The notes below the pieces were generated by a model, which saw only the letters and a program-made list of their open reading frames with translations, did no database searches and was not told where the DNA came from. From Streptomyces triticagri (GTDB lineage Bacteria > Actinomycetota > Actinomycetes > Streptomycetales > Streptomycetaceae), in contig NZ_QUAK01000025.1 in NCBI RefSeq assembly GCF_003429565.1, positions 124,001 to 188,000 of the forward strand: a DNA stretch of 64,000 nt, read 5' to 3'. Within the stretch, counting starts at the first letter, position 1. Every line of letters begins with the position of its first letter. A program made the position numbers and the translations under genes. Positions 19,759 to 36,672 of this stretch are shown here, piece by piece.

Positions 19759-19762
19759 GGGA

Positions 19763-21661
19763 TCAGACCGCCCTCATCAGCAGGGTCGCGGCGATGAGGA
19801 TCGCCGTACCGCCGAACATCGAGACCGCGTAGCTGCGCGCGAAGCCGTTCTGCAGCCGGCGGAGCCGGCCGGAGAGTCCGCCGAAGCCGGCCGCCGTGCC
19901 GTTCACGACCCCGTCGACCAGGCTGTGGTCGACGTACACCAGGGACCGGGTCAGGTGCTCGCCGCCGCGGACGAGTACGACATGGTTGAAGTCGTCCTGG
20001 AGCAGATCGCGCCGGGCCGCCCGGGTGAGCAGCGACCCCTTGGGCGGGGTGACCGGCACCGGCCGCCGCCCGTACTGCAGATACGCGAGGCCGGCGCCGA
20101 GCAGCAGCACGACGACGGTGGACGCGGTGATGGCGGGGACGCTGATCACCGGGTGCGGGTGGTGGAACTCGGTGACGGGTTCCAGCCACTTCACGAAGGC
20201 TTCGTTGAGGCTGAACAGGCCGCCCGCGAAGACCGATCCGAAGGCGAGCACGATCATCGGGATCGTCATGGACTTCGGGGACTCGTGCGGGTGCGGTTCA
20301 TTGCCTGCCGCGTCCGGCTGCCAGCGCTTCTCGCCGAAGAAGGTCATGATCATCACGCGGGTCATGTAGAACGCGGTGATACCCGCGCCGAGCAGTGCGA
20401 CGCCGCCGAAGATCCAGCCGCGGATCCCGTCGTCGTACGCGAACGCCGCCTCGATGATCTTGTCCTTGGACCAGAAGCCGGACAGGCCCGGGAAGCCGAT
20501 GATCGCGAGATAGCCGAGGCCGAAGGTCACGAAGGTGACCGGCATGTACTTGCGCAGTCCGCCGTACTTGCGCATGTCGACCTCGTCGTTCATGCCGTGC
20601 ATCACGGAGCCCGCACCGAGGAAGAGCCCGGCCTTGAAGAAGCCGTGCGTCACCAGGTGCATGATCGCGAAGGCGTATCCGATCGGGCCGAGACCCGCCG
20701 CCATGATCATGTAGCCGATCTGTGACATCGTCGAACCGGCCAGGGCCTTCTTGATGTCGTCCTTGGCGCAACCGACGATCGCACCGAACAGCAGCGTGAC
20801 CGCACCCACGATGACGACCGCGAGTTGGGCGTCGGGCGCCGCATTGAAGATCGTGCCGGACCGGACGATCAGGTACACGCCCGCGGTGACCATGGTGGCC
20901 GCGTGGATCAGGGCCGAGACCGGAGTCGGGCCCTCCATCGCGTCCCCGAGCCAGGACTGCAGCGGCACCTGGGCCGACTTTCCGCAGGCCGCGAGCAGCA
21001 GCATCAGGCCGATCGCGGTCAGCTTGCCCTCGCCGGTCTCACCGGTCGCCTCCAGGACACCGCCGAAGGCGAAGGTCCCGAAGGTGGTGAACATCAGCAT
21101 GATCGCGATCGAGAGGCCGATGTCACCGACGCGGTTGACCAGGAAGGCCTTCTTGGCCGCGGTCGCCGCGCTCGGCTTGTGCTGCCAGAACCCGATGAGG
21201 AGGTACGAGGCGAGGCCCACACCCTCCCAACCGACGTACAGGAGGAGGTAGTTGTCGGCGATGACCAGGATCAGCATCGCCGCGAGGAACAGGTTCAGAT
21301 AGGCGAAGAAGCGGCGGCGCCGCTCGTCGTGCTCCATGTACCCCATCGAGTAGACGTGGATCAGCGAGCCCACGCCGGTGATGAGGAGCACGAACGTCAT
21401 CGACAACTGGTCGAGCTGGAAGGCGATGTCGGCCTGGAAGCCGCCCACCGGGATCCAGCTGAACAGATGCTGGTGCAGCGACCGGTCCTCGGTCGACCGG
21501 CCCAGCATGTCGACGAAAAGGCCGACCGCGATGCCGAACGAGGCGAAGGCGAGCGCCGTGCCGATCACATGGCCGACTCGGTCGAGCCGGCGTCCGCCGC
21601 ACAGCAGGACCGCCGCTCCGAGCAGAGGCGCCGCCACGAGCAGCGCAATCAGGTTCTCCAC
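19763..21661 (-). CDS. nuoL: NADH-quinone oxidoreductase subunit L
   Basis: Largest antiporter-like subunit, 632 residues. It has 16 or so transmembrane helices, including the long C-terminal lateral helix region that clamps the membrane arm. Diagnostic blocks are [18 protein letters not shown] (helix-5 Glu), [37 protein letters not shown] (helix-7 Lys and helix-8 His) and [31 protein letters not shown]. The start is GTG at 21661, 15 bases after the nuoK stop at 21677; GGAAGA lies just upstream. Complete, with no missing catalytic residue noticed. Confidence 0.96.
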
Positions 21662-21676
21662 GATTCTTCCGACCCC

Positions 21677-21976
21677 TCAGAGCTTCATCAGGCTGGCGTC
21701 GTCGACCGAGGCCGAGTGGCGGGAACGGAACAGCGACACGATGATCGCGAGCCCGACCACGACCTCGGCGGCGGCGACGACCATCGTGAAGAACGCGATG
21801 ATCTGCCCGTCGAGATTGCCGTGCATCCGGGAGAAGGCGACCAGCGCGAGGTTGCAGGCGTTGAGCATCAGCTCGACGCACATGAACAGCACGATGGCGT
21901 TCCGCCGGATCAGTACGCCGGTGGCGCCGATCGAGAACAACAGGGCCGCGAGATAGAGGTAGTTGACGGGATTCAC
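21677..21976 (-). CDS. nuoK: NADH-quinone oxidoreductase subunit K
   Basis: A 99-residue three-helix membrane subunit. The second helix block [23 protein letters not shown] contains the conserved Glu (in CVELML) required for proton pumping. The third helix carries the second family Glu in [14 protein letters not shown]. Length is normal for the family. It starts with GTG at 21976, overlapping the nuoJ stop as GTGA. Confidence 0.96.
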
Positions 21977-22839
21977 TTCGGGCCCTCCGTCTTCCCCGAT
22001 TCGCCGGCCCCGGCCGCGGTCGCCGCGCTCCGGGGGAATCCGGCCTCGTCACGTCCGAGCCGTTCCTCGGAGCGCTGCTCCAGTGCCCTGAGGTCGTCGA
22101 GCGCCTCGTCGGACACGTCCCGGATCTGGCCGCGGTCGCGCAGTGTCTGCATCACCGTGAGCTCGGACGGGGTGCCGTCCGGGAGCAGGCCGGCGATGTC
22201 CACCGCGTTGTGCCGGGCGTACACACCGGGCGCGGGCAGCGGCGGCAGATGCTTGCCCTCGCGGACCCGCTGCTCGGCCAACTCGCGCTGGGTGCGGGCG
22301 CGTTCGGTGCGCTCGCGGTGGGTGAGCACCATCGCGCCGACGGCCGCCGTGATGAGCAGCGCGCCGGTGATCTCGAAGGCGAACACGTACTTGGTGAAGA
22401 TCAGCGAGGCGAGTCCCTCGACGTTGCCCCCGGCGTTGGCCTGGGCGAGTCCGGTCGCCTCGCTCAGCGAGGCGTTGCCGATGCCGCCGACCAGGAGCAC
22501 CGCGAAGCCGAGGCCGCAGAGCGCGGCCATCCAGCGCTGGCCCTTGATGGTCTCCTTCAGTGAGTCAGCCGCCGTGACGCCGACGAGCATGACCACGAAG
22601 AGGAAGAGCATCATGATCGCGCCGGTGTAGACGACGATCTGCACGATGCCGAGGAAGTACGCGCCGTTCGCCAGATAGAACACCGCGAGGATGATCATGG
22701 TCCCGGCCAGGCAGAGCGCGCTGTGCACGGTCTTCTTCATGAACACGGTGCCCAGGGCGCCGAGCACCGCGATGGTGCCGAGCACCCAGAACTGGAAGGC
22801 CTCGCCACTGGAGGTGGTGTACGCGGCGAGCGCGGTCAT
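21973..22839 (-). CDS. nuoJ: NADH-quinone oxidoreductase subunit J
   Basis: Five-helix membrane subunit with [17 protein letters not shown], the pi-bulge helix block of the family. At 288 residues it is far longer than the roughly 185 of E. coli NuoJ. The extra 100 or so residues after the last helix (about residue 175 on) are charged and hydrophilic ([36 protein letters not shown]) and must lie in the cytoplasm; long NuoJ tails are usual in actinobacteria. ATG at 22839 overlaps the nuoI stop by four bases. Confidence 0.95.
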
Positions 22840-23483
22840 GCCTCCGCCCCCCTGCCTGCCGCCTCCGTGGCCTCCTGGCCCTGCGACTCGGCGACCTGCT
22901 GCACCGTGCCGGGCGCGGCCTCGGTCACCAGGCCCCGGTAGTAGTCCTGTTCGTCGGTGCCCGGGTAGATCGCGTGCGGGGAGTCGACCATGCCCTCCTC
23001 CAGGCCCGCGAGCAGCTGCTCCTTGGTGTAGATCAGGCTCTCGCGGCTGGAGTCGGCCAGCTCGAACTCATTGGTCATCGTGAGTGCCCGGGTGGGGCAC
23101 GCCTCGATGCACAGGCCGCACAAGATGCAGCGGGCGTAGTTGATCTGGTAGACGCGGCCGTAGCGCTCACCCGGCGAGTAGCGCTCCTCCTCGGTGTTGT
23201 CCGCGCCCTCCACGTAGATCGCGTCGGCGGGACAGGCCCAGGCGCACAGCTCGCAGCCCACGCACTTCTCCAGGCCGTCCGGGTGCCGGTTGAGCTGGTG
23301 GCGGCCGTGGAAGCGCGGAGCGGTGGTCTTCGGCTGCTCCGGGTACTGCTCGGTGAGCCGCTTCTTGAACATGGCCGAGAAGGTCACGCCGAAGCCGGCC
23401 ACCGGATTCTGGAATCCCTGCTTCTGTGTGTCCTTGGACGCAGCCTCGCGGGACTCACCGGATTTCCGGGATGACTCAGACAC
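22836..23483 (-). CDS. nuoI: NADH-quinone oxidoreductase subunit I
   Basis: Ferredoxin-like subunit carrying clusters N6a and N6b, shown by two CxxCxxCxxxCP motifs, [17 protein letters not shown] and [16 protein letters not shown]. It passes electrons from the peripheral arm toward NuoB. The 215-residue start at GTG 23483 is chosen because GGAGG sits 6 bases upstream and the gene then overlaps nuoH by 8 bases; an in-frame ATG at 23504 lies within nuoH without a site. An N-terminal 30-residue hydrophilic stretch and a C-terminal 30-residue tail exceed the E. coli length. Confidence 0.95.
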
Positions 23484-24864
23484 CGTCGGCCTCCTTTCCG
23501 TCACGGGCGCCGGGGGTCGCGGCCCCGCCTGCTGGGTCGGTACTGCCGGATCCGCCGCTGGTGACCAGCTCCCGCTCGTGGCGGGACCGGCGGCGCGGCA
23601 CGGGCGGCAACTCCTGTCCGGGCAGCGGCGGTACGGGGAATCCGCCCGCCATCGGGTCGAAGGCCGGCGCCTGTTCGGCCTCGACCGCGGCCTCCTGCTT
23701 CTCCCGCTTCTCGCGGAAGGTGTCGTACAGGAAGGAGAGGACGAGCAGCGTGAGGACGCCGCCGGCGACGTAGAGCACGATCGAGGAGAAGTCCACGTTC
23801 TCGTTGCGCATGGTGCGCACGGTCGCGACCACCATCAGCCAGACGACCGAGACCGGGATCAGGACCTTCCAGCCGAGCTTCATCAGCTGGTCGTAGCGGA
23901 CGCGGGGCAGCGTGCCGCGCAGCCAGATGAAGAAGAACAGCAGCAACTGGACCTTGAGGACGAACCAGAGCATCGGCCACCAGCCGGCGTTCGCGCCCTC
24001 CCACAGGGCCGTGACCGGATACGGGGCACGCCAGCCGCCGAGGAACAGCGTCACCGCGACCGCCGAGACGGTCACCATGTTGATGTACTCGGCCAGCATG
24101 AACATCGCGAACTTGATGGAGCTGTACTCGGTGTTGAAGCCGCCGACCAGATCGCCCTCGGACTCCGGCATGTCGAACGGGGCGCGGTTGACCTCGCCGA
24201 CCATCGTCACGATGTACAGCAGGAACGACAGCGGCAGCAGGATGATGTACCAGCGGTCCGCCTGCGCCTCCACGATCGCCGAGGTCGACATCGACCCGGA
24301 GTAGAGGAACACCGAGGCGAAGGCCGCGCCCATCGCGATCTCGTACGAGATCATCTGCGCGCAGGAGCGGAGCCCGCCGAGCAGCGGATACGTCGATCCG
24401 GACGACCAGCCGGCGAGCACGATGCCGTAGATGCCGACGGAGGCGACCGCGAGGATGTAGAGCATCGCGATCGGCAGGTCGGTGAGCTGCATCGTGGTGC
24501 GGTGGCCGAAGATCGAGATCTGGTTGTCGGCCGGGCCGAAGGGGATCACCGCGATGGCCATGAAGGCCGGCACCGCGGCGACGATCGGCGCGAGGATGTA
24601 GACCACCTTGTCGGCGCGCTTGACGACGACGTCTTCCTTGAGCATCAGCTTGATGCCGTCCGCGAGGGACTGCAGGAGGCCCCAGGGTCCGTGCCGGTTG
24701 GGGCCGATGCGCCGCTGCATCCAGGCGACGACCTTGCGCTCCCACACGATGGAGAAGAGCACGGTCACCATCAGGAAGGCGAAGCAGAAGACCGCCTTGA
24801 TCGCGACGAGCCACCAGGGGTCGCGGCCGAACATCGAGAGGTCTTCGAGGGCGAGTGCGGTCAT
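23476..24864 (-). CDS. nuoH: NADH-quinone oxidoreductase subunit H
   Basis: Membrane subunit forming most of the quinone-access chamber, 462 residues with eight helices. Marks include [60 protein letters not shown] and [24 protein letters not shown], the last rich in the acidic residues of the E-channel. A hydrophilic tail of about 80 residues after the last helix ([18 protein letters not shown]) is absent from the E. coli protein. The ATG at 24864 overlaps the nuoG stop by four bases; upstream in-frame codons belong to nuoG. Confidence 0.95.
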
Positions 24865-27362
24865 GACTGCACCTCCTGGGCCACGGCCCCGGCCACGGCC
24901 GGGCCGATGCGGACGAGTGCGCCGGGTACGGCTCCGGTGTCGGAGGCGACCCCGCCGCCCGCCGAGTTCAGCGGGAGCCACACCACGCGGTCGGGCATCT
25001 CGGTGACGCGCAGCGGGAGTTCGACGGAGCCGGCCGGTCCGGAGACGGCGAGGGTGTCGCCGTCCTTGACGCCGGCCTCGGCCGCGGTGGCGGCGGAGAG
25101 CCGGGCCACCGCCTCGTGCCGGGTGGCCGCGAGCGCCGAGTCGCCCTCCTGCAGCCGGCCCTGGTCGAGCAGCAGCCGGTGTCCGGCGAGTACGGCCTCG
25201 CCCGCGGCGGGCCGCGGCAGGTCACCACCGCCTGCCTCGGGGGCGCTCGCGCGCGCGCCGTCCCAGGCGCCGAGCCGGTCGAGTTCGCGGTGCGCCGATG
25301 CGTTGTCCGGCAGCGCCAGGTGGATGTCCATCGCGTCGGCCAGCATGTGCAGCGCACGCGCGTCGGTCGGTGCGAGCCGCCGGGTCATCTGGTCCGGCTT
25401 GAGCGCGGCCTCGAACAGCCGGGCCCTGCCCTCCCAGTTGAGGAAGGTCCCGGACTTCTCGGCGACCGCCGCGACCGGCAGGACGACGTCCGCGAGCGCG
25501 GTGACCTCGCCGGGCCGCTGTTCCAGGCTGACCACGAAGGACGCCTCGGCGAGCGCGCGCCGGGCGAGCTCCGGGTCCGGCAGGTCGGCGAGCTCGACGC
25601 CCGCGACGAGCAGTGCGCCCAGTTCGCCGGTGGCGGCGGCCTGCACGATCTGTGCGGTGTCGCGACCGTGACCGCCGGGGAGCCGGGCCACGCCCCACTG
25701 GGCCGCGACCTCGTCCCGCGCCCGCGGGTCGGTGGCCGGCCGGCCACCGGGCAGCAGCGTCGGCAGGGCGCCCACTTCGAGCGCACCGCGCTCGCCGGCC
25801 CGGCGCGGGATCCACACAAGCTCGGCGCCGGTGGCCTCCGCCGTACGCAGCACCGCGGTGAGCCCGCCCGCCACGCCCGCGAGACGTTCGCCGACCACGA
25901 TGACGGCGCCGGGTGCGCGCAGCGCCTCGGCGGCGGCCGCGCCGTCACCCTCCAGGCCGGTGTTCCCGGCGAGCGCGTCCAGCCACTCGGGCTCGGTGCC
26001 GGGGGCGGCGGGCAGCAGGGTGCCGCCCGCCTTCTCCAGACCCCGGGTGGCGAACGGGGCGATGGCGAAGGTCCGTTGGCCGCTCTTGCGGTGCGCCTTG
26101 CGCAGCCGCAGGAAGACTCCCGGGACCTCCTCCTCCGCCTCGATCCCGGCGAGGAGTACGGCCGGCGCCTTCTCCAGGGAGATGTTGGTGACCCCGGTGC
26201 CCGTCAGGTCGCGCCCGCGACCCGCGACCCGGGCCGCCAGGAAGTCGGCCTCCTCGGCGCTGTGCACCCGCGCGCGGAAGTCGATGTCGTTGGTGTCGAG
26301 GGCGATCCGGGCGAACTTGCTGTACGCGTAGGCGTCCTCGACGGTGAGGCGGCCGCCGGTGAGGACTCCGGCGCGGCCGCGTGCGGCGTTCAGACCGTTC
26401 GCCGCCGCCTCCAGGGCCTCCGGCCAACTGGCCGTCTCGAGCTCGCCGTTCTCGTTCCTTACGAGGGGGTGGGTGAGGCGGTCGCGCTGCTGGGCGTAGC
26501 GGAATGCGAAGCGCCCCTTGTCGCAGATCCACTCCTCGTTGACCTCGGGGTCGTTCTCGGCGAGGCGCCGCATGACCTTGCCGCGGCGGTGGTCGGTGCG
26601 GGTCGCGCAGCCGCTCGAGCAGTGCTCGCACACCGAGGGCGAGGAGATCAGGTCGAACGGCCGGGACCGGAAGCGGTACGCGGCCGAGGTGAGCGCGCCC
26701 ACCGGGCAGATCTGGATGGTGTTCCCGGAGAAGTACGACTCGAAGGGGTCGCCCTCGCCGGTGCCGACCTGCTGCAGCGCGCCCCGCTCGATCAGCTCGA
26801 TCATCGGGTCACCCGCGACCTGGTTGGAGAAGCGGGTGCAGCGCGCACAGAGCACACAGCGCTCACGGTCGAGCAGCACCTGTGCCGAGATCGGCACCGG
26901 CTTCTCGTACGTGCGCTTCCTGCCCTCGAAGCGGGAGTCGGCCTGGCCGTGCGACATGGCCTGGTTCTGCAGGGGGCACTCGCCGCCCTTGTCGCAGACC
27001 GGGCAGTCGAGCGGGTGGTTGATCAGCAGCAGCTCCATCACGCCCTGCTGCGCCTTCTCGGCGACCGGCGAGGTGAGGTGCGTCTTGACGACCATGCCGT
27101 CGGTGCAGGTGATGGTGCAGGAGGCCATCGGCTTGCGCTGGCCCTCCACCTCGACGATGCACTGGCGGCAGGCGCCGGCCGGGTCGAGCAGCGGGTGGTC
27201 GCAGAACCGCGGGATCTCGATGCCCAGTTGCTCGGCGGCGCGGATCACCAGGGTGCCCTTGGGGACACTGATCTCCACGCCGTCGATGGTCAGCGCGACC
27301 AGGTCCTCGGGCGGCACGGCCGCCTCGCCGCCCCCGGAGGGAGCATTCGTCGTGACCGTCAT
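24861..27362 (-). CDS. nuoG: NADH-quinone oxidoreductase subunit G
   Basis: Large iron-sulfur subunit of the peripheral arm, 833 residues. The N-terminal 2Fe-2S domain has [15 protein letters not shown] and a later Cys (cluster N1b). The His/Cys 4Fe-4S N5 region is [15 protein letters not shown] with [13 protein letters not shown] (N4). [13 protein letters not shown] through CDKGRFAF is a further Cys set, present in enzymes that keep the N7 cluster. From about residue 260 the protein is a degenerate molybdopterin-oxidoreductase domain, expected to be inactive. ATG 27362 has GGAGGTGA upstream and overlaps the nuoF stop by four bases. Confidence 0.95.
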
Positions 27363-28744
27363 GCGTTCACCTCCGTGTGCGTGTCGGCCCGGTCGCTCCA
27401 GAGGGTCGACCTGGCGGGGTCGAAGGGGCAGCCCTGGCCGGTGATGTGCTGCTCGTACTCCTCGCGGAAGTACTTGAGCGAGGAGAAGATCGGCGAGGCG
27501 GCGCCGTCGCCGAGTGCGCAGAACGACTTGCCGTTGATGTTGTCGGCGATGTCGTTCAGCTTGTCGAGGTCGGACATGACGCCCTTGCCGTCCTCGATGT
27601 CGCGCAGCAACTGCACCAGCCAGTACGTCCCTTCGCGGCAGGGCGTGCACTTGCCGCAGGACTCGTGGGCGTAGAACTCGGTCCAGCGGGTCACCGCGCG
27701 GACCACGCAGGTGGTCTCGTCGAAGCACTGCAGCGCCTTGGTGCCGAGCATCGATCCGGCGGCGCCGACGCCCTCGTAGTCAAGCGGTACGTCGAGGTGT
27801 TCGTCGGTGAACATCGGCGTGGAGGAGCCGCCCGGGGTCCAGAACTTCAGCCGGTGGCCGGGCCGCATCCCGCCGCTCATCTCGAGCAGTTGGCGCAGCG
27901 TGACGCCGAGCGGCGCCTCGAACTGGCCCGGGTTGGCGACATGTCCGCTGAGCGAGTAGAGCGTGAAGCCGGGCGACTTCTCGCTGCCCATCGAGCGGAA
28001 CCAGTCCTTGCCCTTGTTGATGATGGCGGGCACGGACGCGATGGACTCGACGTTGTTCACCACCGTGGGGCAGGCGTACAGGCCGGCGACCGCGGGGAAG
28101 GGCGGCCGCAGCCGGGGCTGGCCGCGGCGCCCTTCGAGCGAGTCGAGCAGCGCCGTCTCCTCACCGCAGATGTAGGCGCCCGCGCCCGCGTGCACGGTCA
28201 GTTCGAGGTCGAGCCCGCTGCCCAGGATGTCCTTGCCGAGGTAGCCCGCCTCGTAGGCCTCTCGTACGGCCTCGTGCAGGCGCCGCAGTACGGGGACCAC
28301 CTCGCCGCGCAGATAGATGAAGGCGTGGCTGGAGCGGATCGCGTAGCAGGCGATCACGATGCCCTCGATCAGGGAGTGCGGATTGGCGAAGAGGAGCGGG
28401 ATGTCCTTGCAGGTGCCGGGCTCGGATTCGTCCGCGTTCACCACCAGGTAGTGCGGCTTGCCGTCGCCCTGCGGGATGAACTGCCACTTCATACCGGTCG
28501 GGAAGCCGGCGCCGCCGCGGCCGCGGAGCCCTGCGTCCTTCACATAAGCGATGAGGTCGTCGGGTGACATCTCGAAGGCCTTGCGCAGTCCTTCGTACCC
28601 CTCGTGCCGGCGGTAGGTCTCGAGCGACCAGGGCCGGTCCTCGTCCCAGAAGGACGACAGGACGGGGGTGAGGAGCTTCTCGGGGCTCGACCCGGCTTCG
28701 GCCTCGGGCCGGGACGCGCCCCCGTATTCGGTGGACACGGACAT
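27359..28744 (-). CDS. nuoF: NADH-quinone oxidoreductase subunit F
   Basis: NADH- and FMN-binding subunit, 461 residues, where electrons enter complex [18 protein letters not shown] at about residue 75 binds FMN and [25 protein letters not shown] follows, and [13 protein letters not shown] with a later Cys holds cluster N3. The ATG at 28744 shares one base with the nuoE stop (TGATG) and has GGAGGGGGAG immediately upstream, so re-initiation is expected. The frame stays open further upstream but there overlaps nuoE and is not conserved sequence. Confidence 0.96.
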
Positions 28745-29595
28745 CACTCCCCCTCCTCGGAAACCGGGCCCGACGGGTGCTGCGGGTCGGAAGCCGAGGT
28801 CTGCTGTGGCGCGTCGTGGGAACTGGGGTGGTCGGCGGGGGTCTGGTCCTGCGGGGCCGAGCCGCGCGGGTGGACGACCCGGTGGTGGCCCTCGCCCTTG
28901 GCGAGCCGCAGGCCGAGCAGCGAGGCGGGACCGGCGGCGCCGGAGGCCTCGACCGCGCCGGGCCGCTCGTCGGGGAAACCGGCCAGGATGCGGGCGGTCT
29001 CCTTGAAGGTGCACAGCGGGGCGCCGCGGGTGGGCGACACCTCGCGGCCGGAGCGCAGGTCGTCGACGAGCTGCTTGGCGCTGTCCGGCGTCTGGTTGTC
29101 GAAGAACTCCCAGTTCACCATCACCACGGGCGCGAAGTCGCAGGCCGCGTTGCACTCGATGTGCTCGAGGGTGACCTTGCCGTCCTCGGTGGTCTCGCTG
29201 TTGCCGACGCCGAGGTGCTCCTGCAGCTCCTCGAAGATGGCGTCGCCGCCCATCACCGCACAGAGCGTGTTGGTGCAGACCCCGACCTGGTAGTCACCGC
29301 TCGGCTTGCGCCGGTACATGGTGTAGAAGGTCGCGACCGCGGTGACCTCGGCGGTGGTCAGTCCGAGCACATCGGCGCAGAACTGCATGCCGGTGCGGGT
29401 GACATGCCCCTCCTCGGACTGCACGAGGTGCAGCAGCGGGAGGAGCGCCGACCTGCTGTCGGGGTAGCGGGCGACGATCTCCTTGGCGTCCGCCTCCAGA
29501 CGTACGCGTACGTCGTCCGGGTAGTCGGGGGCCGGGAGCTGGGGCATGCCCAGGCTCGTCGGGCTGCCGGTGCTTGTGGGGTGTGCGTCCGTCAC
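28744..29595 (-). CDS. nuoE: NADH-quinone oxidoreductase subunit E
   Basis: Thioredoxin-like 2Fe-2S subunit (cluster N1a). The four cluster Cys are in [14 protein letters not shown] and [13 protein letters not shown]. The 283-residue product is over 100 residues longer than E. coli NuoE. The extra sequence follows [24 protein letters not shown] and is Pro/Ser/Gln/His-rich, hence probably disordered. GTG 29595 overlaps the nuoD stop as GTGA and has GGGAGG upstream. The longer open frame up to 30477 is the shadow of nuoD. Confidence 0.94.
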
Positions 29596-30914
29596 CGGTC
29601 GACGCCTCCCATCACGGGGTCGATGGATGCGACGGCGACGATGACGTCGGCGACCTGGCCGCCCTCGCACATCGCCGCCATGGCCTGCAGGTTGGTGAAG
29701 GAGGGGTCGCGGAAGTGCACCCGGTAGGGCCGGGTGCCGCCGTCCGAGGCGACGTGCACGCCGAGCTCGCCCTTGGGCGATTCGACGGCGACGTACGCCT
29801 GTCCCGGCGGGACCCGGAAGCCCTCGGTCACCAGCTTGAAGTGGTGGATCAGGGCCTCCATCGAGGTGCCCATGATGTTCTTGATGTGGTCGAGCGAATT
29901 GCCCAGACCGTCGGGGCCGAGGGCCAGTTGGGCCGGCCAGGCGATCTTCTTGTCGCCGACCATGACCGGGCCCGGCTCCAGCCGGTCGAGGCACTGCTCG
30001 ATGATGTGCAGCGACTGGCGCATCTCCTCCAGGCGGATCAGGAACCGCCCGTAGGAGTCGCAGGTCTCGGCGGTCGGCACCTCGAAGTCGTACGTCTCGT
30101 AGCCGCAGTACGGGTCGGACTTGCGCAGGTCGTGCGGGAGGCCGGTGGACCGGAGCACGGGGCCCGTCGCGCCGAGCGCCATGCAGCCGGCCAGGTCCAG
30201 ATAGCCGACGTCCTGCATGCGGCCCTTGAAGATGGGGTTGCCGGTGGCGAGCTTGTCGTAGTCGTCGAGGTTCTTCCGCATGGTCTTCAGGAACTCGCGG
30301 ACCTTGTCCACGGTCCCGGGCGGCAGGTCCTGGGCGAGTCCGCCGGGCCGGATGTACGCGTGGTTCATCCGCAGGCCGGTGATCAACTCGAAGAGGTCCA
30401 GGACGAGTTCGCGGTCCCGGAAGCCGTAGATCATGATCGTGGTGGCGCCGAGCTCCATGCCGCCGGTGGCCAGGCACACCAGGTGCGAGGAGAGCCTGTT
30501 CAGCTCCATGAGCAGGACCCGGATGATCGTCGCGCGGTCCGGGATCTCGTCCTCGATGCCGAGCAGCCGCTCGACGGCGAGGCAGTACGCCGTCTCGTTG
30601 AAGAACGGCGTCAGGTAATCCATGCGCGTGACGAAGGTGGTGCCCTGCGTCCAGGTCCGGTACTCGAGGTTCTTCTCGATGCCGGTGTGCAGATAGCCGA
30701 TGCCGCAGCGGGCCTCGGTCACCGTCTCGCCGTCGATCTCCAGGATCAGCCGGAGCACCCCGTGCGTGGACGGGTGCTGGGGGCCCATGTTGACGATGAT
30801 GCGCTCGTCGTCGGACTTGACCGCGTTCTCGACGACCTCGTCCCAGTCGCCGCCGGTGACGGTGTAGACGGTGCCCTCGGTGGTCGCCCTCGGGGTTGCG
30901 TGGGGTGTGGTCAC
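29592..30914 (-). CDS. nuoD: NADH-quinone oxidoreductase subunit D
   Basis: 49-kDa-type subunit lining the quinone site, 440 residues. [22 protein letters not shown] at about residue 40 includes the His near the quinone head group, and [21 protein letters not shown] and [20 protein letters not shown] match the family. The fold is that of NiFe-hydrogenase large subunits without the metal ligands. GTG 30914 overlaps the nuoC stop as GTGA. NuoC and NuoD are separate here, unlike the fused form of E. coli. Confidence 0.96.
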
Positions 30915-31669
30915 GAGTACGACCTCCGCTGGTCAGGAGCCGGGATCTGGGCGCCCTTGTACTCGACGGCGATGCCGCCGAGGGGGTAGTCCTTGCGCTG
31001 CGGGAAGCCCTGCCAGTCGTCCGGCATCATGATCCGGGTCAGCGCCGGGTGCCCGTCGAAGATCAGCCCGAAGAAGTCGTAGGTCTCGCGCTCGTGCCAG
31101 TCGTTGGTCGGATAGACCTCGACGAGCGAGGGCACGTGCGGATCGCTGTCCGGTGCGGAGACCTCGAGCCGGATCAGCCGGGTGTGGGTGATCGAGCGCA
31201 GGTGGTAGACGGCGTGCAGCTCGCGGCCCTTGTCGTTCGGGTAGTGCACTCCGCTGACCCCGGTGCACAGCTCGAAGCGCAGCGCCGGGTCGTCGCGCAG
31301 GGTCTTCGCCACCCGCACCAGGTGCTCGCGCGCGATGTGGAAGGTGAGCTCGTCGCGGTCGACGATCGTCTTCTCGATGGCGTTCTCGGGGAGCAGGTCC
31401 TGCTCCTCGAGGGCGCCCTCCAGCTCGTCGGCCACCTCGTCGAACCAGCCGCCGTACGGGCGGTTGGCCGGCCCCGGCAGGCGTACGGAGCGGACCAGGC
31501 CGCCGTAGCCGGAGGTGTCGCCGCCGTTGTTGGCGCCGAACATTCCGCGCTGGACGCGGATCTCCTCGCCCTGGTCGCCGCGCTGGCCCGGGAGGTTGTC
31601 CGCGCCGAGGTCCTTCTCCGGGTTCACGCCGTCGTTCGCGCCGTCGTTCGCGCCGTTCTTGTCGGTCAT
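30911..31669 (-). CDS. nuoC: NADH-quinone oxidoreductase subunit C
   Basis: 30-kDa-type subunit bridging NuoD and NuoB, 252 residues. The family signature [38 protein letters not shown] is near the C-terminus. The first 50 residues are hydrophilic and include a short internal repeat (GANDGANDG, from two 12-base units at about 31633-31656), longer than usual. ATG 31669 overlaps the nuoB stop by four bases; its ribosome site (AAGGGG) is modest, consistent with coupling to nuoB. Confidence 0.95.
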
Positions 31670-32220
31670 CGCAGCAGCCCCTTCATCTCGATGGTGGGGA
31701 GTGCCTTGAGGGCCGCCTCCTCCGCCTCGCGGGCCGCTTCCTCGGCATTCACGCCGAGCTTCGAGGTCTGGATCTTCTGGTGCAGCTTGAGAATCGCGTC
31801 CATCAGCATTTCCGGCCGCGGCGGACAACCGGGCAAATAGATGTCGACCGGGATGACATGGTCGACGCCCTGCACAATCGCGTAATTGTTGAACATGCCG
31901 CCGGAAGACGCACAAACCCCCATGGAAATGACCCACTTGGGATTCGGCATCTGGTCATAGACCTGCCGGAGCACGGGCGCCATCTTCTGGCTGACCCGGC
32001 CGGCCACGATCATCAGGTCGGCCTGGCGCGGCGATCCACGGAAGACCTCCATACCGAAGCGGGCGAGGTCGTACCGCCCGGCTCCGGTCGTCATCATCTC
32101 GATCGCACAGCAGGCGAGGCCGAACGTGGCAGGAAAGACGGACGACTTGCGCACCCATCCCGCGGCCTGCTCGACGGTCGTCAGCAGAAACCCGCTCGGC
32201 AGTTTCTCTTCAAGTCCCAT
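31666..32220 (-). CDS. nuoB: NADH-quinone oxidoreductase subunit B
   Basis: Subunit carrying the terminal cluster N2 that reduces the quinone, 184 residues. The ligands are the adjacent Cys pair in [11 protein letters not shown], the Cys in [11 protein letters not shown] and the Cys in PGCPPRPE. Complete and of typical length, with a C-terminal helical tail rich in Glu and Ala. It lies 15 bases downstream of nuoA. Codon use here is slightly less GC-rich than its neighbours (several AAT and TTC-rich stretches). Confidence 0.96.
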
Positions 32221-32235
32221 GGGTGAATCAGCCCC

Positions 32236-32595
32236 TCAGTCCCAGTCCAGGCCGCCGCGCCGCCACACATAGGCGTACGCGACGAAGACGGTGAGCACGA
32301 AGAGCAGCATCTCCACGAGCCCGAAAACCCCGAGCGCGTCAAAGGTGACGGCCCAGGGATAGAGGAAGACGATCTCGATATCGAAAATGATGAAGAGCAT
32401 CGCCGTCAGGTAGTACTTGATGGGGAATCGCCCACCGCCGGCCGGAGTCGGCGTGGGCTCGATACCGCATTCATAGGCTTCGAGCTTCGCCCGGTTGTAC
32501 CGCTTTGGACCGACAAGCGTGGCCATGACCACGGAGAAGATCGCAAAGGCGGCGCCCAGGGCTCCCAGTACGAGGATGGGCGCATACGCGTTCAC
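32236..32595 (-). CDS. nuoA: NADH-quinone oxidoreductase subunit A
   Basis: First gene of the operon: a 119-residue three-helix membrane subunit. KLEAYECGIEPTPTPAGGGRFPIKYYLTAMLFIIFDIEIVFLYPWAV contains the Cys-bearing loop whose position tracks the active/deactive transition, and the helix-2 acidic residues FDIE. Start is GTG 32595 with GGAG upstream. A Rex-type operator and a candidate -10 lie 96-134 bases upstream. Confidence 0.96.
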   Translation of the reverse strand: MNAYAPILVLGALGAAFAIFSVVMATLVGPKRYNRAKLEAYECGIEPTPTPAGGGRFPIKYYLTAMLFIIFDIEIVFLYPWAVTFDALGVFGLVEMLLFVLTVFVAYAYVWRRGGLDWD

Positions 32596-32690
32596 CGCTC
32601 CTCGCTCCTCTCAGTCGACACTGACTGCTTCGGCGGACGGACCTGCGGGCTTTCCCCCGCCCCACGAAGATCGCATCGAAGATCGCATCC

Positions 32691-32708
32691 ATGTGAGGCA
32701 GTTCACAA
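32691..32708. promoter_or_regulatory. Rex (redox repressor) operator candidate upstream of nuoA
   Basis: ATGTGAGGCAGTTCACAA matches the streptomycete Rex consensus TTGTGAAnnnnTTCACAA at every specified position except the first T and the central A (here G). Rex senses the NADH/NAD+ ratio and in S. coelicolor controls cyd and nuo genes. It lies about 96 bases upstream of the nuoA start and just downstream of the likely transcription start, where bound repressor would block elongation or initiation. Confidence 0.72.
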
Positions 32709-32723
32709 GCCCAACTGCCCCGC

Positions 32724-32729
32724 ATCCTA
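32724..32729 (-). promoter_or_regulatory. candidate -10 element of the nuo promoter
   Basis: On the minus strand this reads TAGGAT, close to the HrdB-type TAgnnT -10 element, and would place transcription start near 32717, shortly before the Rex-like site. The -35 region 17-18 bases upstream is poor (TCGCAG), so the assignment is tentative. Confidence 0.4.
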
Positions 32730-32898
32730 TGCCTGCCGGTCTGTGATCTGCGACACGGGGTACGACAACGACTTTGTGATCTCCACCACCTGACGAAGGA
32801 TCATGAAGCCGGATGAGCGGTGATCTTCGTACGCGAAGCTCCGAAGTGATCACCAGTAGTGACATCCGGGTGCGTTACCGCTGGTCGGAGCGGCGCCG

Positions 32899-32959
32899 CC
32901 CTATCAAGTAAGGGGAGCCTTACGCAAATTGGCGCTGGACATCGGCGCTTGATAGAGGG
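32899..32959. repeat. nested inverted repeat in the nuoA-NlpC intergenic region
   Basis: CCCTATCAAG (32899-32908) and CTTGATAGAGGG (32948-32959) form the outer stem. Inside it, overlapping the left arm by one base, is a second perfect inverted repeat GTAAGG-GGAG-CCTTAC (32908-32923). The two could form alternative structures in RNA or protein sites in DNA. The inner element looks like a DmdR/IdeR iron box widened by four bases and so does not fit that consensus. Confidence 0.55.
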
Positions 32960-33484
32960 CCGCGCTCACTCATGAGAGGGAGCGGGCGGGGCAGGGGTGG
33001 ACGGCAGCGGACGGCGACGGGCGACGGATGCGCCGGGGAACGGAGAGGAGCCGGGCCGACAGCGCGCGCCGCGCCCCACCGGTCCGACGGTTCGTCACCT
33101 ATGAATGCACTGCGTCCGGTTTGCCACCCCGGACACCCGGGCACGCGACCGGCAGGGCGACCCCGGGGCGTTCGCAGGGAGATGCCGGATCCCTAATGTC
33201 CGTTCCACAGGCGGCCGTTCCGTGACCCGCGCGTGACCTATGCCACGCCCTCACCGGTGAACGGACCGAGGGCTTGGCCATCGACTCGGGTCGGTGGTAA
33301 GCGGTGGGCAAATAGGGCGTAACGCGGAAAACCCGTGATCATGGCCTTGATCAGCGGTGTCCAAATTGCCCGTTACGGCGTCAATAAAGGCCGACACGCC
33401 CGGGATTCGGCCGGGAATTCAGCAACTGTGGCGCAGCACACGTTTCTTGAAGGGAACCCGCGCGCCCTGATAGCGGTTGTTCCC
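32960..33484. other. gene-free region upstream of the NlpC/P60 gene
   Basis: With 32596-32959 this makes an 889-base stretch without a credible gene between nuoA and the cell-wall hydrolase. Short open frames here have no ribosome sites and poor composition. The part from about 33300 on is less GC-rich (GGTGTCCAAATTGCCCGTTA) and probably holds the promoter and leader of the hydrolase. I looked for the c-di-AMP (ydaO) riboswitch that often precedes such genes in actinobacteria and did not find its conserved segments. Confidence 0.5.
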
Positions 33485-34300
33485 ATGTCCCACACCGCTC
33501 ACATACCCAGCCACCGGAAGCCCCGCCGCAGCGCCTCCAAGGTGGCCCTGCGCGCCGGAGTTGCCGGTGGCGTCCTCAGCACCCTCGCAGTGGCCGGTGC
33601 ATCCGGTTCGGCGAACGCGGCCGAGCCGGTGACCGAGACCGTCGAAATGCCCACGCTCACCACCGAGCTGGCCACCAAGATGGCCGCCACCGCCGACGCC
33701 ACCCAGCAGGTGGCGGACTCCATCCAGCTGCAGGCCGACCAGGACGCCGCAGCCGAGAAGGCCGCCAAGGAAGCCAAGAAGGCCAAGGCCGAGGCCGAGC
33801 GCAAGGCGGAGGCCAAGAAGAAGGCCGCCGCCGAGCGCGCCGAGAAGGCCCGCGAGGCCCGCGCCGAGCGCTCCGCCGACCGCGCGACCCTCAGCACCCA
33901 GAGCACCTCCGGCTCGTCCGCCCAGGCCTCCGCCTCCACCCCGAGCGGCAGCGTCGGCGCCGTCGTCGGCTTCATGAAGGCGCAGCTCGGCGACGCCTAC
34001 GTGATGGGCGCCTCGGGCCCCGACGCGTGGGACTGCTCCAGCCTGGTGCAGGCCGCGTACAAGCAGGCCGGCATCGACCTGCCGCGCGTCTCGCAGGACC
34101 AGTCGACCGTCGGCACCGAGGTCGGCACGTCCAACCTCCAGGTCGGCGACATCCTGTACTGGGGCGGCAAGGGCTCCGCGTACCACACCGGTGTGTACAT
34201 CGGTGACGGCCAGTACCTGGACGCCGCGAACCCGAGCAAGGGCGTCGTCATCCAGGACCTGTCCGGCTACCCGGCCTCCGGCGCGGTCCGCGTCCTGTGA
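33485..34300 (+). CDS. secreted NlpC/P60 cell-wall endopeptidase
   Basis: A 271-residue exported hydrolase. The order is a twin-Arg-free signal peptide (basic HRKPRRSASK, then a hydrophobic core, cleavage near SANAA-EP at about residue 40), a long Lys/Glu/Ala coiled coil (residues 70-130), a Ser/Thr linker and an NlpC/P60 domain from about residue 155. Catalytic Cys is in DAWDCSSLVQAAYKQAGI; the His is in YHTGVYIGDGQYLDA. It would cleave stem-peptide bonds in peptidoglycan. Start ATG 33485 lacks a clear ribosome site; GTG 33428 would add 19 residues. A strong terminator follows. Confidence 0.9.
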   Translation: MSHTAHIPSHRKPRRSASKVALRAGVAGGVLSTLAVAGASGSANAAEPVTETVEMPTLTTELATKMAATADATQQVADSIQLQADQDAAAEKAAKEAKKAKAEAERKAEAKKKAAAERAEKAREARAERSADRATLSTQSTSGSSAQASASTPSGSVGAVVGFMKAQLGDAYVMGASGPDAWDCSSLVQAAYKQAGIDLPRVSQDQSTVGTEVGTSNLQVGDILYWGGKGSAYHTGVYIGDGQYLDAANPSKGVVIQDLSGYPASGAVRVL

Positions 34301-34346
34301 CCGGCTTCCGCGTCCGCTGACGCGAACGGCCGTACGGCATCACCGA

Positions 34347-34382
34347 GGGCCCGGGGACCTACCTGATCAGGTCCCCGGGCCC
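34347..34382. terminator. strong bidirectional terminator
   Basis: GGGCCCGGGGACCT and AGGTCCCCGGGCCC form a perfect 14-bp stem around the 8-base loop ACCTGATC. It lies between the stops of the convergent NlpC/P60 gene and the membrane-protein gene at 34393 and can serve both. Confidence 0.88.
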
Positions 34383-34392
34383 CGATGCGTTC

Positions 34393-34809
34393 TCACGGCG
34401 TCCGTGGGCCGGCCTGCGGGTCGACGAGTACGCCGCGCAGCCGCCGCGGGCCGAAGACCGCACCCGCGGCGAGTACGGCGGCCGGCGCCAGGATCAGCGC
34501 CATGCCCGCCGCCCAAGTCGTCCTGCGGCGGTCGCACTTGGACTCGACGCGGTCCTGCACGATCCAGTGCGGCTCGCCCCGGTCAGGCTTCGGCAGCTCA
34601 CCGCCGGTGACGTCGAAGCTGTACGAGCGCGAGCCGCCGTCCTCACTGATCTTCCGGCTCGACCATCCCGCGTCCGCCACGGAGCTGCAGCTGACCTCCG
34701 CGTCGTTGCCGTAGAAGGTGAGCGTCGGCGACATCAGGAAGAGACACAACGCCCAGATCGCCAACAAACCCGCCAGTACGCCGCATACAACCCGTCCCCG
34801 TTTCGTCAT
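34393..34809 (-). CDS. small two-helix membrane protein, unknown function
   Basis: A 138-residue protein with a hydrophobic segment at residues 8-30 (VVCGVLAGLLAIWALCLFLM), an external loop of about 65 residues with three Cys, and a second helix near residues 98-120 (TWAAGMALILAPAAVLAAGAVF). The loop carries SSVADAGWSSRKISEDGGSRSYSFDV. No family recognised. It is followed downstream by the shared terminator and lies next to another small membrane protein in the same orientation. Confidence 0.65.
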   Translation of the reverse strand: MTKRGRVVCGVLAGLLAIWALCLFLMSPTLTFYGNDAEVSCSSVADAGWSSRKISEDGGSRSYSFDVTGGELPKPDRGEPHWIVQDRVESKCDRRRTTWAAGMALILAPAAVLAAGAVFGPRRLRGVLVDPQAGPRTP

Positions 34810-34865
34810 GCCGGGACGCTATCGCCCGTCGGCGACGGCCGGGTCGAGCTTCTGTCACGGGTCGG

Positions 34866-35117
34866 TCAGGGGCCTGCGGGCGGATGCGAGTCCGGGTCCG
34901 GGTGCCAGGCGCGGCTGCAGGCCTTGCACTCCAGCATCCCGTTGAGCCGGTTGTCGGACACGATCGTCCGGGTCCTGCCGCTGCCGCACCCGGGGCACCG
35001 GCCCCGCGCCCGATTCCACCGCTCGAGGCCGGCGGGCCGCCAGGAGTCGAGACGCGCGAGCAACCACACGACTCCGGCCACCACGACCAGACACACCACG
35101 CCTACGAACACTGCCAC
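34866..35117 (-). CDS. small membrane-anchored zinc-ribbon protein
   Basis: An 83-residue protein. An N-terminal helix (VFVGVVCLVVVAGVVWLLA) is followed by a cytosolic Cys4 ribbon: CPGCGSG with CKAC 25 residues later (LECKACSRAWHP). The rubredoxin-like knuckles imply zinc binding. Start GTG 35117 has GGGAAG upstream. Function unknown; such small anchored ribbons occur widely in streptomycetes. Confidence 0.62.
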   Translation of the reverse strand: MAVFVGVVCLVVVAGVVWLLARLDSWRPAGLERWNRARGRCPGCGSGRTRTIVSDNRLNGMLECKACSRAWHPDPDSHPPAGP

Positions 35118-35176
35118 GCTTCCCTCACCCTCGGCCTCGGCCCGACCGGGTCACCGGCCGTCTGAGGCCGCCCACG

Positions 35177-35668
35177 CTACGTTCCGCCGCCGTACGAAGG
35201 CCCGGCGAGGTCCAGTTCGGCCCATGCGGTCTTCAGGGGCGCGGGGCCCGCGGTCACGCCCCAGCGGTCGGCGAGGGCCTCGACGAGGACCAGTCCGCGC
35301 CCCGACTCGGCGTCCGGCGCCGGGGCCCGGGGCGGCGCGGGAACGCGTTCGTGCCGTGCGTCGGCGACCTCGATACGGAGGGTCGCGGGGCCGGCCCGCA
35401 GCACCAGCCGGAAGTCCCGGCCTCGGACGCGCCCGTGGGTGGCGGCATTGGCGGCGAGCTCGGCCACGATCTGCCGCGCGGGGTCCAAGGGCCAGCCCCA
35501 GGCGCGGAGTTGCTCGCCCGCGAGCAGCCGCGCGAGGCGGGCGCCGCGTGGGGTGGAGGACAGCTGTACGTAGAAGTGCAAGCGCCCGAGCGACGGGTCG
35601 GGGAGTTCGGCGGTTTCCGGATTCACGGGCTCAGCCTGATCCGCCCCGCCTACGCTCCACAGTGACAC
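35177..35668 (-). CDS. ATP-binding protein of the anti-sigma-factor kinase type (HATPase_c)
   Basis: A 163-residue GHKL-fold ATPase related to SpoIIAB/RsbW. The N box is QIVAELAANAATHG at about residues 66-79, a G1-like segment is EVADARHERVP, and the G2 box is SGRGLVLVEALADRWG at about residues 121-136. Streptomyces genomes carry dozens of these beside an XRE regulator and a DUF397 protein, the exact arrangement here: it is divergent from the XRE gene at 35797. Proposed roles include control of development or antibiotic genes; its partner cannot be deduced beyond this neighbourhood. Confidence 0.85.
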   Translation of the reverse strand: MSLWSVGGADQAEPVNPETAELPDPSLGRLHFYVQLSSTPRGARLARLLAGEQLRAWGWPLDPARQIVAELAANAATHGRVRGRDFRLVLRAGPATLRIEVADARHERVPAPPRAPAPDAESGRGLVLVEALADRWGVTAGPAPLKTAWAELDLAGPSYGGGT

Positions 35669-35705
35669 TCCGCTTGCGTACGGTGACTGTCCGGGCTCTG
35701 TCCAG

Positions 35706-35717
35706 GCCTGTACAGGC
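35706..35717. promoter_or_regulatory. palindrome between divergent HATPase and XRE genes
   Basis: GCCTGTACAGGC is a perfect 12-bp palindrome in the 128-base gap between the two divergent genes, flanked by repeated CTGTCC motifs. It is a natural candidate operator for the adjacent XRE protein; no binding evidence. Confidence 0.42.
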
Positions 35718-35796
35718 TGTCCAACCAGCCGCCCGGGTAAGGACGTCGGCGGTGCACGGCGGGGAGTTCGGCGCGGCGGCGGAAGGTACGGGCGGG

Positions 35797-36672
35797 ATGG
35801 ACAAGCGCGTTGATGTGGTGGAAGTACGGGACGAGCCCGAGGAGCCGGGCTGGGAGGTGGACCCCGAGGACGAACAGGGCGTGGCCCTGGTCACCTTCGT
35901 AGGACGCCAGTTGCGTGCGCGGCGCGAGGCGTCCGGGCTACGGGCCGCGGAGTTCGCCACGGCGATGGGCTACGGCGAGGGCCTCGTCTACAAGGTCGAG
36001 TCGGGCAAGCGGATCCCGCGCCCGGAGTACCTGGAGAAGGCGGACGAGGTCCTGGGAGCGGGCGGCGCGGTGGCGGCGATGAAGGACGACGTCGCGGAGG
36101 CGCGGTATCCGAAGAAGGTGCGGGATCTGGCGGACATGGAGGCGCGGGCCGTTGAGATCGGTGCGTACGTGGCGCACGGTCTGCACGGACTGCTCCAGAC
36201 CGAGGGGCATGCCCGCGCGCTGTTCGAGGCGCGGCGGCCGGCCTACGCGCAGGGCGAGGTGGAGCGCATGACCGCGGCCCGGACGGCACGGCAGTCGATC
36301 TTCGACCGACTCCCGGGACCGACTCTGAGCTTCGTCCAGGAGGAGTCCGCTCTACGTCGCCCCATCGGGGGCACAATGGAGTGGCGGCAACAGCTCGAAC
36401 GTCTCGTGCAGATCGGGCAGTTGCGCAACGTCACGCTCCAGGTGATGCCTACGTACCGCGAGGCTCATCCGGGGATGGACGGGAAGATCGAGCTGCTGAA
36501 GTTCCAGGACGGCACGGCGGTTGGACGTTCCGAGGGAGCCTTCAACGGCCGCCCCGTGACAGATCCCAAGCAGCTGCGGATCCTTGAGATGCGGTATGGC
36601 ATCATCCGGGCCGAGGCACTCGCCCCAGGGGAGACACTGGCCTTCATCGAGCAACTGCTGGGAGAAACATGA
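35797..36672 (+). CDS. XRE-type helix-turn-helix regulator with DUF5753 domain
   Basis: A 291-residue DNA-binding protein. An acidic N-terminus precedes an XRE helix-turn-helix at about residues 35-90 (FVGRQLRARREASGLRAAEFATAMGYGEGLVYKVESGKRIP). A C-terminal DUF5753 domain runs from about residue 115 (AVEIGAYVAHGLHGLLQTEGHARALF through LRILEMRYGIIRAEAL). This pairing, with a DUF397 gene overlapping its stop by four bases, is the standard Streptomyces module typified by BldB/WhiJ-associated proteins. The ATG at 35797 starts the conserved part; the long upstream open frame is non-coding. Confidence 0.9.
   Translation: MDKRVDVVEVRDEPEEPGWEVDPEDEQGVALVTFVGRQLRARREASGLRAAEFATAMGYGEGLVYKVESGKRIPRPEYLEKADEVLGAGGAVAAMKDDVAEARYPKKVRDLADMEARAVEIGAYVAHGLHGLLQTEGHARALFEARRPAYAQGEVERMTAARTARQSIFDRLPGPTLSFVQEESALRRPIGGTMEWRQQLERLVQIGQLRNVTLQVMPTYREAHPGMDGKIELLKFQDGTAVGRSEGAFNGRPVTDPKQLRILEMRYGIIRAEALAPGETLAFIEQLLGET

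Follow-up and report, generated by a model that had tools for sequence, protein, structure and literature searches.

A probable Rex operator with a single perfect half-site ahead of the complex I operon in Streptomyces triticagri and its family

Introduction

What controls the complex I (nuo) operon of Streptomyces triticagri, and is the 18-bp palindrome in front of its first gene an operator of Rex? In Streptomyces avermitilis, the binding of Rex to the nuoA1 promoter was demonstrated by gel shift, ChIP, and footprinting (Liu et al. 2017, PMC5355995). The footprint protected 27 nt (−42 to −16) containing TTGTGACCTGCTTCACAT, and the nuoA1 transcript was higher after deletion of rex (PMC5355995). 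Published Rex targets of that species include rex, cydA1, nuoA1, atpI, wblE, ndh2, and ectABC, and the confirmed ones carry 1 to 3 mismatches (PMC5355995). Here, a 64-kb stretch of S. triticagri DNA (64,000 nucleotides, referred to as the window) was analysed together with the rest of the genome and the nuoA loci of related bacteria.

Position and match of the operator

The features at the centre of the question were as follows.

32691–32708, minus strand: Rex operator, assigned from sequence, chance level, and conservation; the orthologous site was footprinted in S. avermitilis (PMC5355995)
32236–32595, minus strand: nuoA (GTG start), first gene of the operon (PF00507, E 2.5e-36)
16502–32595, minus strand: nuoA to nuoN, 14 complex I genes, assigned from Pfam complex I families and gene order

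The letters at 32691–32708 are ATGTGAGGCAGTTCACAA, which read TTGTGAACTGCCTCACAT on the nuo strand, and the operator starts 113 bases upstream of the nuoA GTG (32595). The Rex operator is an 18-bp inverted repeat with the consensus TTGTGAANNNNTTCACAA, from which the site differed at two of the 14 defined positions, having A in place of T at position 1 and G in place of A at position 7. Position 1 is the outermost and position 7 the innermost base of a half-site, and both mismatches fell in the same half. The first-pass annotation had described a near-consensus Rex site at this place, deviating in the first base and in one central base. The site itself was confirmed with exactly these two deviations; the second base does differ, but it belongs to the half-site and not to the free spacer.

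No other site with three or fewer mismatches was present in the window. Dinucleotide shuffles of the window gave 0.18 such sites on average, with at least one in 16 of 100 shuffles. The probability of a site with two or fewer mismatches in the 890-bp intergenic region was 0.00035 under a first-order Markov model. The operator is at the same time a perfect TGTGA-N6-TCACA palindrome of the Crp type.

Fourteen nuo genes follow on the same strand from 32595 to 16502, in agreement with the annotated operon, and were named by their order and their Pfam matches. No operator was present at nuoA2, in a second complex I cluster about 13 kb to the left of the window, where the best site in the 4 kb read had 5 mismatches. 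An Rfam scan of 30000–36000 yielded no family at the gathering score. Published work describes an antisense RNA, conserved among streptomycetes, that lies across from nuoE and nuoF (PMC3765725), genes found at 27359–29592 in the window, and, within the S. venezuelae operon, a site for RsrR ahead of nuoH (PMC5015018).

Rex and its other sites in the genome

A Rex regulon needs a rex gene in the same genome, and one was found. The domains PF06971 and PF02629 occurred in one protein, which scored 390.6 bits against the NCBIfam Rex equivalog (cut-off 226) and matched eight solved chains at E 1e-10 or better, seven of them named Rex and one an AT-rich DNA-binding protein. A Rex site with one mismatch lay about 120 bp before the DNA-binding domain of this protein.

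In the 7.47-Mb genome, 10 sites had two or fewer mismatches, compared with 1 for the reversed control pattern. Nine of the 10 preceded rex, cydA, a putative ndh (two sites), an aldehyde-dehydrogenase-family gene, a putative atpI, a WhiB gene, a putative ectA, and nuoA; the rex site and one ndh site fell inside over-long mechanical open reading frames. The first-pass annotation had proposed a search for further sites near cyd and ndh, and such sites are present here before cydA and the putative ndh. The ndh gene encodes a pyridine-nucleotide oxidoreductase of the general family Pyr_redox_2, which we take to be a type II NADH dehydrogenase. The putative EctA is a GNAT acetyltransferase of the general family Acetyltransf_1. 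The putative AtpI (145 aa) had no Pfam match and was placed from its sequence and neighbour gene, an assignment that we partly presume.

A site with a single mismatch (G000:C235:440-457, L010) lay 20 bp before the aldehyde-dehydrogenase-family gene, whose product we take to resemble the N-terminal half of AdhE. This site is absent from the table of putative Rex targets of S. avermitilis (PMC5355995). The tenth site, with two mismatches (G000:C118:3830-3847, L012), was 52 bp before a gene for a 268-aa protein with a Pfam TPR match below cut-off. The 18-mers of rex, cydA, and the WhiB gene were identical to the S. avermitilis rex, cydA1, and wblE sites (PMC5355995).

Conservation of the operator

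The comparison covered 173 distinct nuoA loci of the family, 123 from Streptomyces and 50 from other genera. Left out were eight loci identical to others and the two copies of the window itself (L013 and L148), and the class-level loci and L236 were kept separate; in the Streptomyces group of 122 rows, L200 stood with the other genera. The operator was present in all 173 loci, in the promoter region of a respiratory gene and conserved together with that gene.

Just two 18-mers covered all 80 related loci that matched best among 589, a set biased to near relatives. The pattern TTGTGANCTGCNTCACAT occurred in 283 of 295 Streptomyces genomes and its reversed control in none, the place before nuoA being read for the fetched loci. 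Among the 12 genomes lacking the pattern, 11 have nuoA, each with a two-mismatch variant, and one (79% complete) gave no nuoA. The operator was also found in 50 of the 50 loci read from other genera of the family (G315, with nuoA split between contigs, was left out). In the class, nuoA was found in 58 of 60 sampled genomes, and 30 of the loci were read, 4 of them from Streptomyces. In the remaining 26, all outside the family, a site with two or fewer mismatches within 500 bp occurred in 3, so the link between Rex and nuo looks local to the lineage.

Many Streptomyces loci had a second operator-like site between nuoA and the divergent gene, with three or fewer mismatches in 25 of 122 rows and with four in 65. 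Seventy-two of these 90 second sites lie 305–329 bp upstream of the operator. The window was without such a site (best, 6 mismatches).

The 18-mer is thus best read, with a probability of roughly 0.93, as the operator of Rex at nuoA-N and an orthologue of the S. avermitilis site. Three findings support this reading: the genome encodes Rex, the operator persists across the family, and in S. avermitilis the corresponding site is bound by Rex and associated with repression. The site is very probably a genuine Rex binding site ahead of complex I genes. For this strain, we infer the binding of Rex, its release by NADH at the nuo site, the use of both promoters described below, and the tuning of the operator.

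Promoters and a proposed mechanism

Upstream and downstream of the operator, the following promoter features were placed.

32776–32789, minus strand: box 1, GTGGTGGAGATCAC, GTG-N8-CAC, 33 bp upstream of box 2; 173 of 173 loci
32743–32756, minus strand: box 2, GTGTCGCAGATCAC, GTG-N8-CAC, overlapping the P1 −35 region; 173 of 173 loci
32724–32729, minus strand: −10 of a proposed upstream promoter, P1, TAGGAT; TARGAT stands exactly 27 nt after the box 2 GTG in 171 of 173 loci
32679–32684, minus strand: candidate −10 of a proposed downstream promoter, P2, GATCTT; its −35 would be TTGTGA of the operator, which fits the published S. avermitilis start (PMC5355995)
32666–32675, minus strand: expected P2 start, deduced by analogy with the footprint in S. 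avermitilis (−42 to −16, PMC5355995)

The operator lies between the candidate −10 (TAGGAT, 32729–32724) and the nuoA GTG at 32595, as the first-pass annotation had it. This −10 and a start near 32717 are supported by the 27-nt spacing, the two exceptions among 173 loci having TAGCAT and TAGTAT in the same place. The distance from the P1 −10 to the operator varied from 16 to 24. A scan of 32500–33500 for consensus sigma-70 promoters found nothing.

In S. avermitilis, the nuoA1 start lies downstream of the operator, which puts the operator over the −35 (PMC5355995). A candidate −10 suited to such a start was present here, since 114 of the 122 Streptomyces rows had GATCTT, and GATCTN stood at the same distance (+24) in 140 of 173 loci. 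One operator may serve both promoters, P1 and P2, and this would reconcile the upstream −10 with the published start. Directly after the operator, a 12-bp unit, GATGCGATCTTC, occurs twice in tandem (32666–32689), which doubles the GATCTT of P2 in this genome.

In the proposed mechanism, Rex would occupy the operator when NADH is low and nuo transcription would be lowered; as NADH rises, Rex would leave. The operator would extend from about +10 to +27 of P1, where bound Rex could block an initiating or leaving polymerase. At P2 it would cover the −35, so that Rex would prevent the binding of polymerase there.

The first-pass annotation had predicted that all of the nuo genes are repressed or released with NADH level, linking expression to respiratory state. 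Repression by Rex is backed by the Rex gene, the family-wide operator, the binding in S. avermitilis, and the derepression in its rex deletion, but strong redox control is not. In S. avermitilis, release by NADH was shown on a cydA1 probe and not on nuo, and under oxygen limitation nuoA1 rose slightly and then fell, alike in the wild type and the rex mutant (PMC5355995). Because release was shown only on cydA1 and nuoA1 was hardly induced, to the same degree without Rex, the redox switch at nuo is probably weaker than the earlier wording suggested. In S. coelicolor, SCO4568 (NuoG), a product of the operon SCO4562-75, is counted in the RegPrecise Rex regulon (PMC7244524). It was the sole deviant among 12 Rex-regulon proteins in a two-species proteome comparison (PMC7244524), which is counted against the main reading.

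Upstream boxes and alternative readings

A 16-mer at box 2, CGTGTCGCAGATCACA, was invariant in 161 of 173 loci, and the spacing between boxes 1 and 2 was 33 bp in 160 loci, 34 in 8, and 32 in 5. In all 173 loci the operator had the perfect TGTGA-N6-TCACA form; the pattern used to locate it already demanded these bases, but none of the loci fell outside that pattern. The GATCAC motif occurs at 32846–32851, 32820–32825, 32776–32781, and 32743–32748, the first two outside any GTG-N8-CAC box.

These boxes raise the possibility that the operator is the third member of a Crp/GlxR-type array, at which a cAMP-receptor protein or a relative shares the site with Rex or competes for it. Such joint control would add to the Rex reading; Crp on box 2, in the P1 −35 region, would repress. 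The operator has the perfect Crp form and boxes 1 and 2 the looser GTG-N8-CAC form, each kept in all 173 loci. The probability of three GTG-N8-CAC motifs within 100 bp was 0.0001 in shuffles, and a Poisson estimate for two extra motifs beside the operator was 0.0005. In Mycobacterium smegmatis, which is reported to have no Rex homologue (PMC7739888), deletion of crp1 raised nuo transcripts 7- to 14-fold, the Crp motif being TGTGA-N6-TCACA (PMC12713383). A CRP/FNR-family protein is also encoded in the S. triticagri genome.

Several observations weigh against it. The Crp motif of S. coelicolor is GTG(N)6GNCAC (PMC10033298, citing Gao 2012), and the G of this motif is A in boxes 1 and 2 and C in the window operator; with A for G, the boxes fit only the looser GlxR form. 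The CRP/FNR-family protein scored 100.6 bits with the NCBIfam CRP model, below the cut-off of 266. The GTG-N8-CAC form also fits all 10 best Rex sites of the genome, so the fit of the operator by itself says little. Data on Crp binding at Streptomyces nuo were not found in the literature searched. Taken together, joint control appears a real possibility that falls somewhat short of even odds.

As controls, the upstream regions of two other Rex targets were read for the same motif. The motif of the operator stood alone in 28 of 30 cydA regions, with one more in the other 2, while the atpI regions had one further GTG-N8-CAC in 26 of 30, two in 3, and none in 1. In the 29 atpI regions with an extra motif (among L267–L296), the distance from it down to the Rex operator was nearly always about 46 bp. 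In this genome, rex likewise has a further GTG-N8-CAC, at a similar distance.

Rex alone might use boxes 1 and 2 as extra half-sites and form a multi-site repression complex. Both boxes retain TCACA, which is TGTGA reversed, in all 173 loci, and S. avermitilis Rex contacts lone half-sites at cydA1 and aveR (PMC5355995). This arrangement is nevertheless unlikely, since the far-side GTG of each box, which half-site use would not need, is also kept in all 173 loci, and the only protected region reported at nuoA1 was the 27 nt around the operator (PMC5355995). It is highly improbable that the palindrome arose by chance or belongs to an unrelated regulator, with Rex inactive on nuo here: this would suit the two mismatches and the indirect evidence for Rex action in this strain, but it disagrees with the conservation, the chance level, and the footprint of Rex on the orthologous site (PMC5355995).

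Half-site grading at nuo, cydA, and atpI

Under the preferred reading, that of a Rex operator, its imperfect match is itself a constant feature. Exactly one perfect TGTGAA half was present in 173 of 173 nuo operators, with two mismatches in 172 loci and one in the remaining locus. The inner symmetric positions were A..C in 92 loci, C..T in 72, A..G in 8, and A..A in 1. The form with both halves perfect and a CTGC spacer was found in 0 of 295 genomes, other spacers being covered by the 173 loci only. A form with neither half perfect occurred in one genome of 295 (G107), as an additional site on the opposite strand, almost 500 bp away from nuoA (L236, 1501–1518), which nearly copies the nuo operator. 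The nuoA-side operator of that genome (1118–1135) keeps the rule of one perfect half.

The operators of cydA and atpI were graded in the same way, from 30 loci each out of 41 and 40 genomes with a match. Both halves were perfect in all 30 cydA operators read, whereas none of the 30 atpI operators had a perfect half. It seems from these sequences that Rex meets fixed operator grades specific to the target: two perfect halves at cydA, one at nuo, and none at atpI. The single perfect half-site would make repression at nuo weaker and more readily relieved than at cydA. From the constancy of the grade, we infer selection for intermediate operator strength at nuo, to which common descent also contributes.

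The perfect half lies on opposite sides in different loci. On a quick nuoA-C tree (173 rows), parsimony required 4 switches from one form to the other. When the loci with the swapped form were constrained to one clade, the AU p was 0.07, and 0.59 without L116 and L090, the constrained tree then being better than the free tree. A single origin of the swap was considered; parsimony counts 4 changes, yet the AU test does not reject one clade. The number of independent swaps may be anywhere from 1 to 4.

A description of the half-site rule or of the box array at Streptomyces nuo was not found in the literature searched, which does not prove that there is none. PMC7674942 makes no mention of nuo or NADH dehydrogenase. 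What looks new is an operator kept just short of perfect, set within a rigid promoter that also contains two other conserved boxes. A broader proposal can be put forward. The complex I promoter of Streptomycetaceae would be a rigid structure (box 1, 33 bp, box 2, 27 nt, TARGAT) controlled jointly by a Crp-family cAMP receptor and Rex. The operator would be the third Crp-type box, held by selection at one perfect half, and the total mismatch would have been kept when the perfect half switched sides in part of the genus. The strength of repression would then be fixed at a conserved level that differs from those of cydA (two) and atpI (none). As a whole, this proposal is tentative and rather doubtful.

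If the fixed operator grades hold across the genus, graded redox control would be an evolved setting. A conserved array of boxes at the main entry into respiration suggests that carbon or cAMP signals and NADH signals may converge on one promoter. The genus in which they may do so is one of antibiotic producers, and oxygen supply affects antibiotic yield in Streptomyces (PMC5355995). The operator as such is ordinary in the genus and well supported; what merits further attention is its conserved sub-maximal match, together with the rigid array of boxes.

Comparison with known systems

The control of nuo in M. smegmatis shares the TGTGA-N6-TCACA motif with the promoter studied here, and its authors suggest that Crp1 represses the complex I operon (PMC12713383). 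Higher nuo expression on lowering of cAMP is also reported for M. smegmatis (PMC9293780). The mycobacterial case differs in that M. smegmatis is reported to lack Rex (PMC7739888), and the action of Crp at Streptomyces nuo is only putative.

The cydA operator is bound by the same protein through the same motif, and in S. avermitilis the cydA site, too, follows closely on a start, with −3 to +25 protected (PMC5355995). Unlike the nuo operator, it has two perfect TGTGAA halves, and in 28 of 30 regions no further GTG-N8-CAC was found within 160 bp.

The closest counterpart is the nuoA1-N1 operator of S. avermitilis. It belongs to the same operon, lies upstream of nuoA, and is the same 18-mer except for two symmetric inner positions (TTGTGACCTGCTTCACAT vs TTGTGAACTGCCTCACAT), but its perfect half-site is on the opposite side. 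Furthermore, the nuoA1 start lies downstream of the operator, whereas conservation here favours an additional upstream start. The link between Rex and complex I is already known, and what the present site adds to it is one more strain and, through the conservation, the family.
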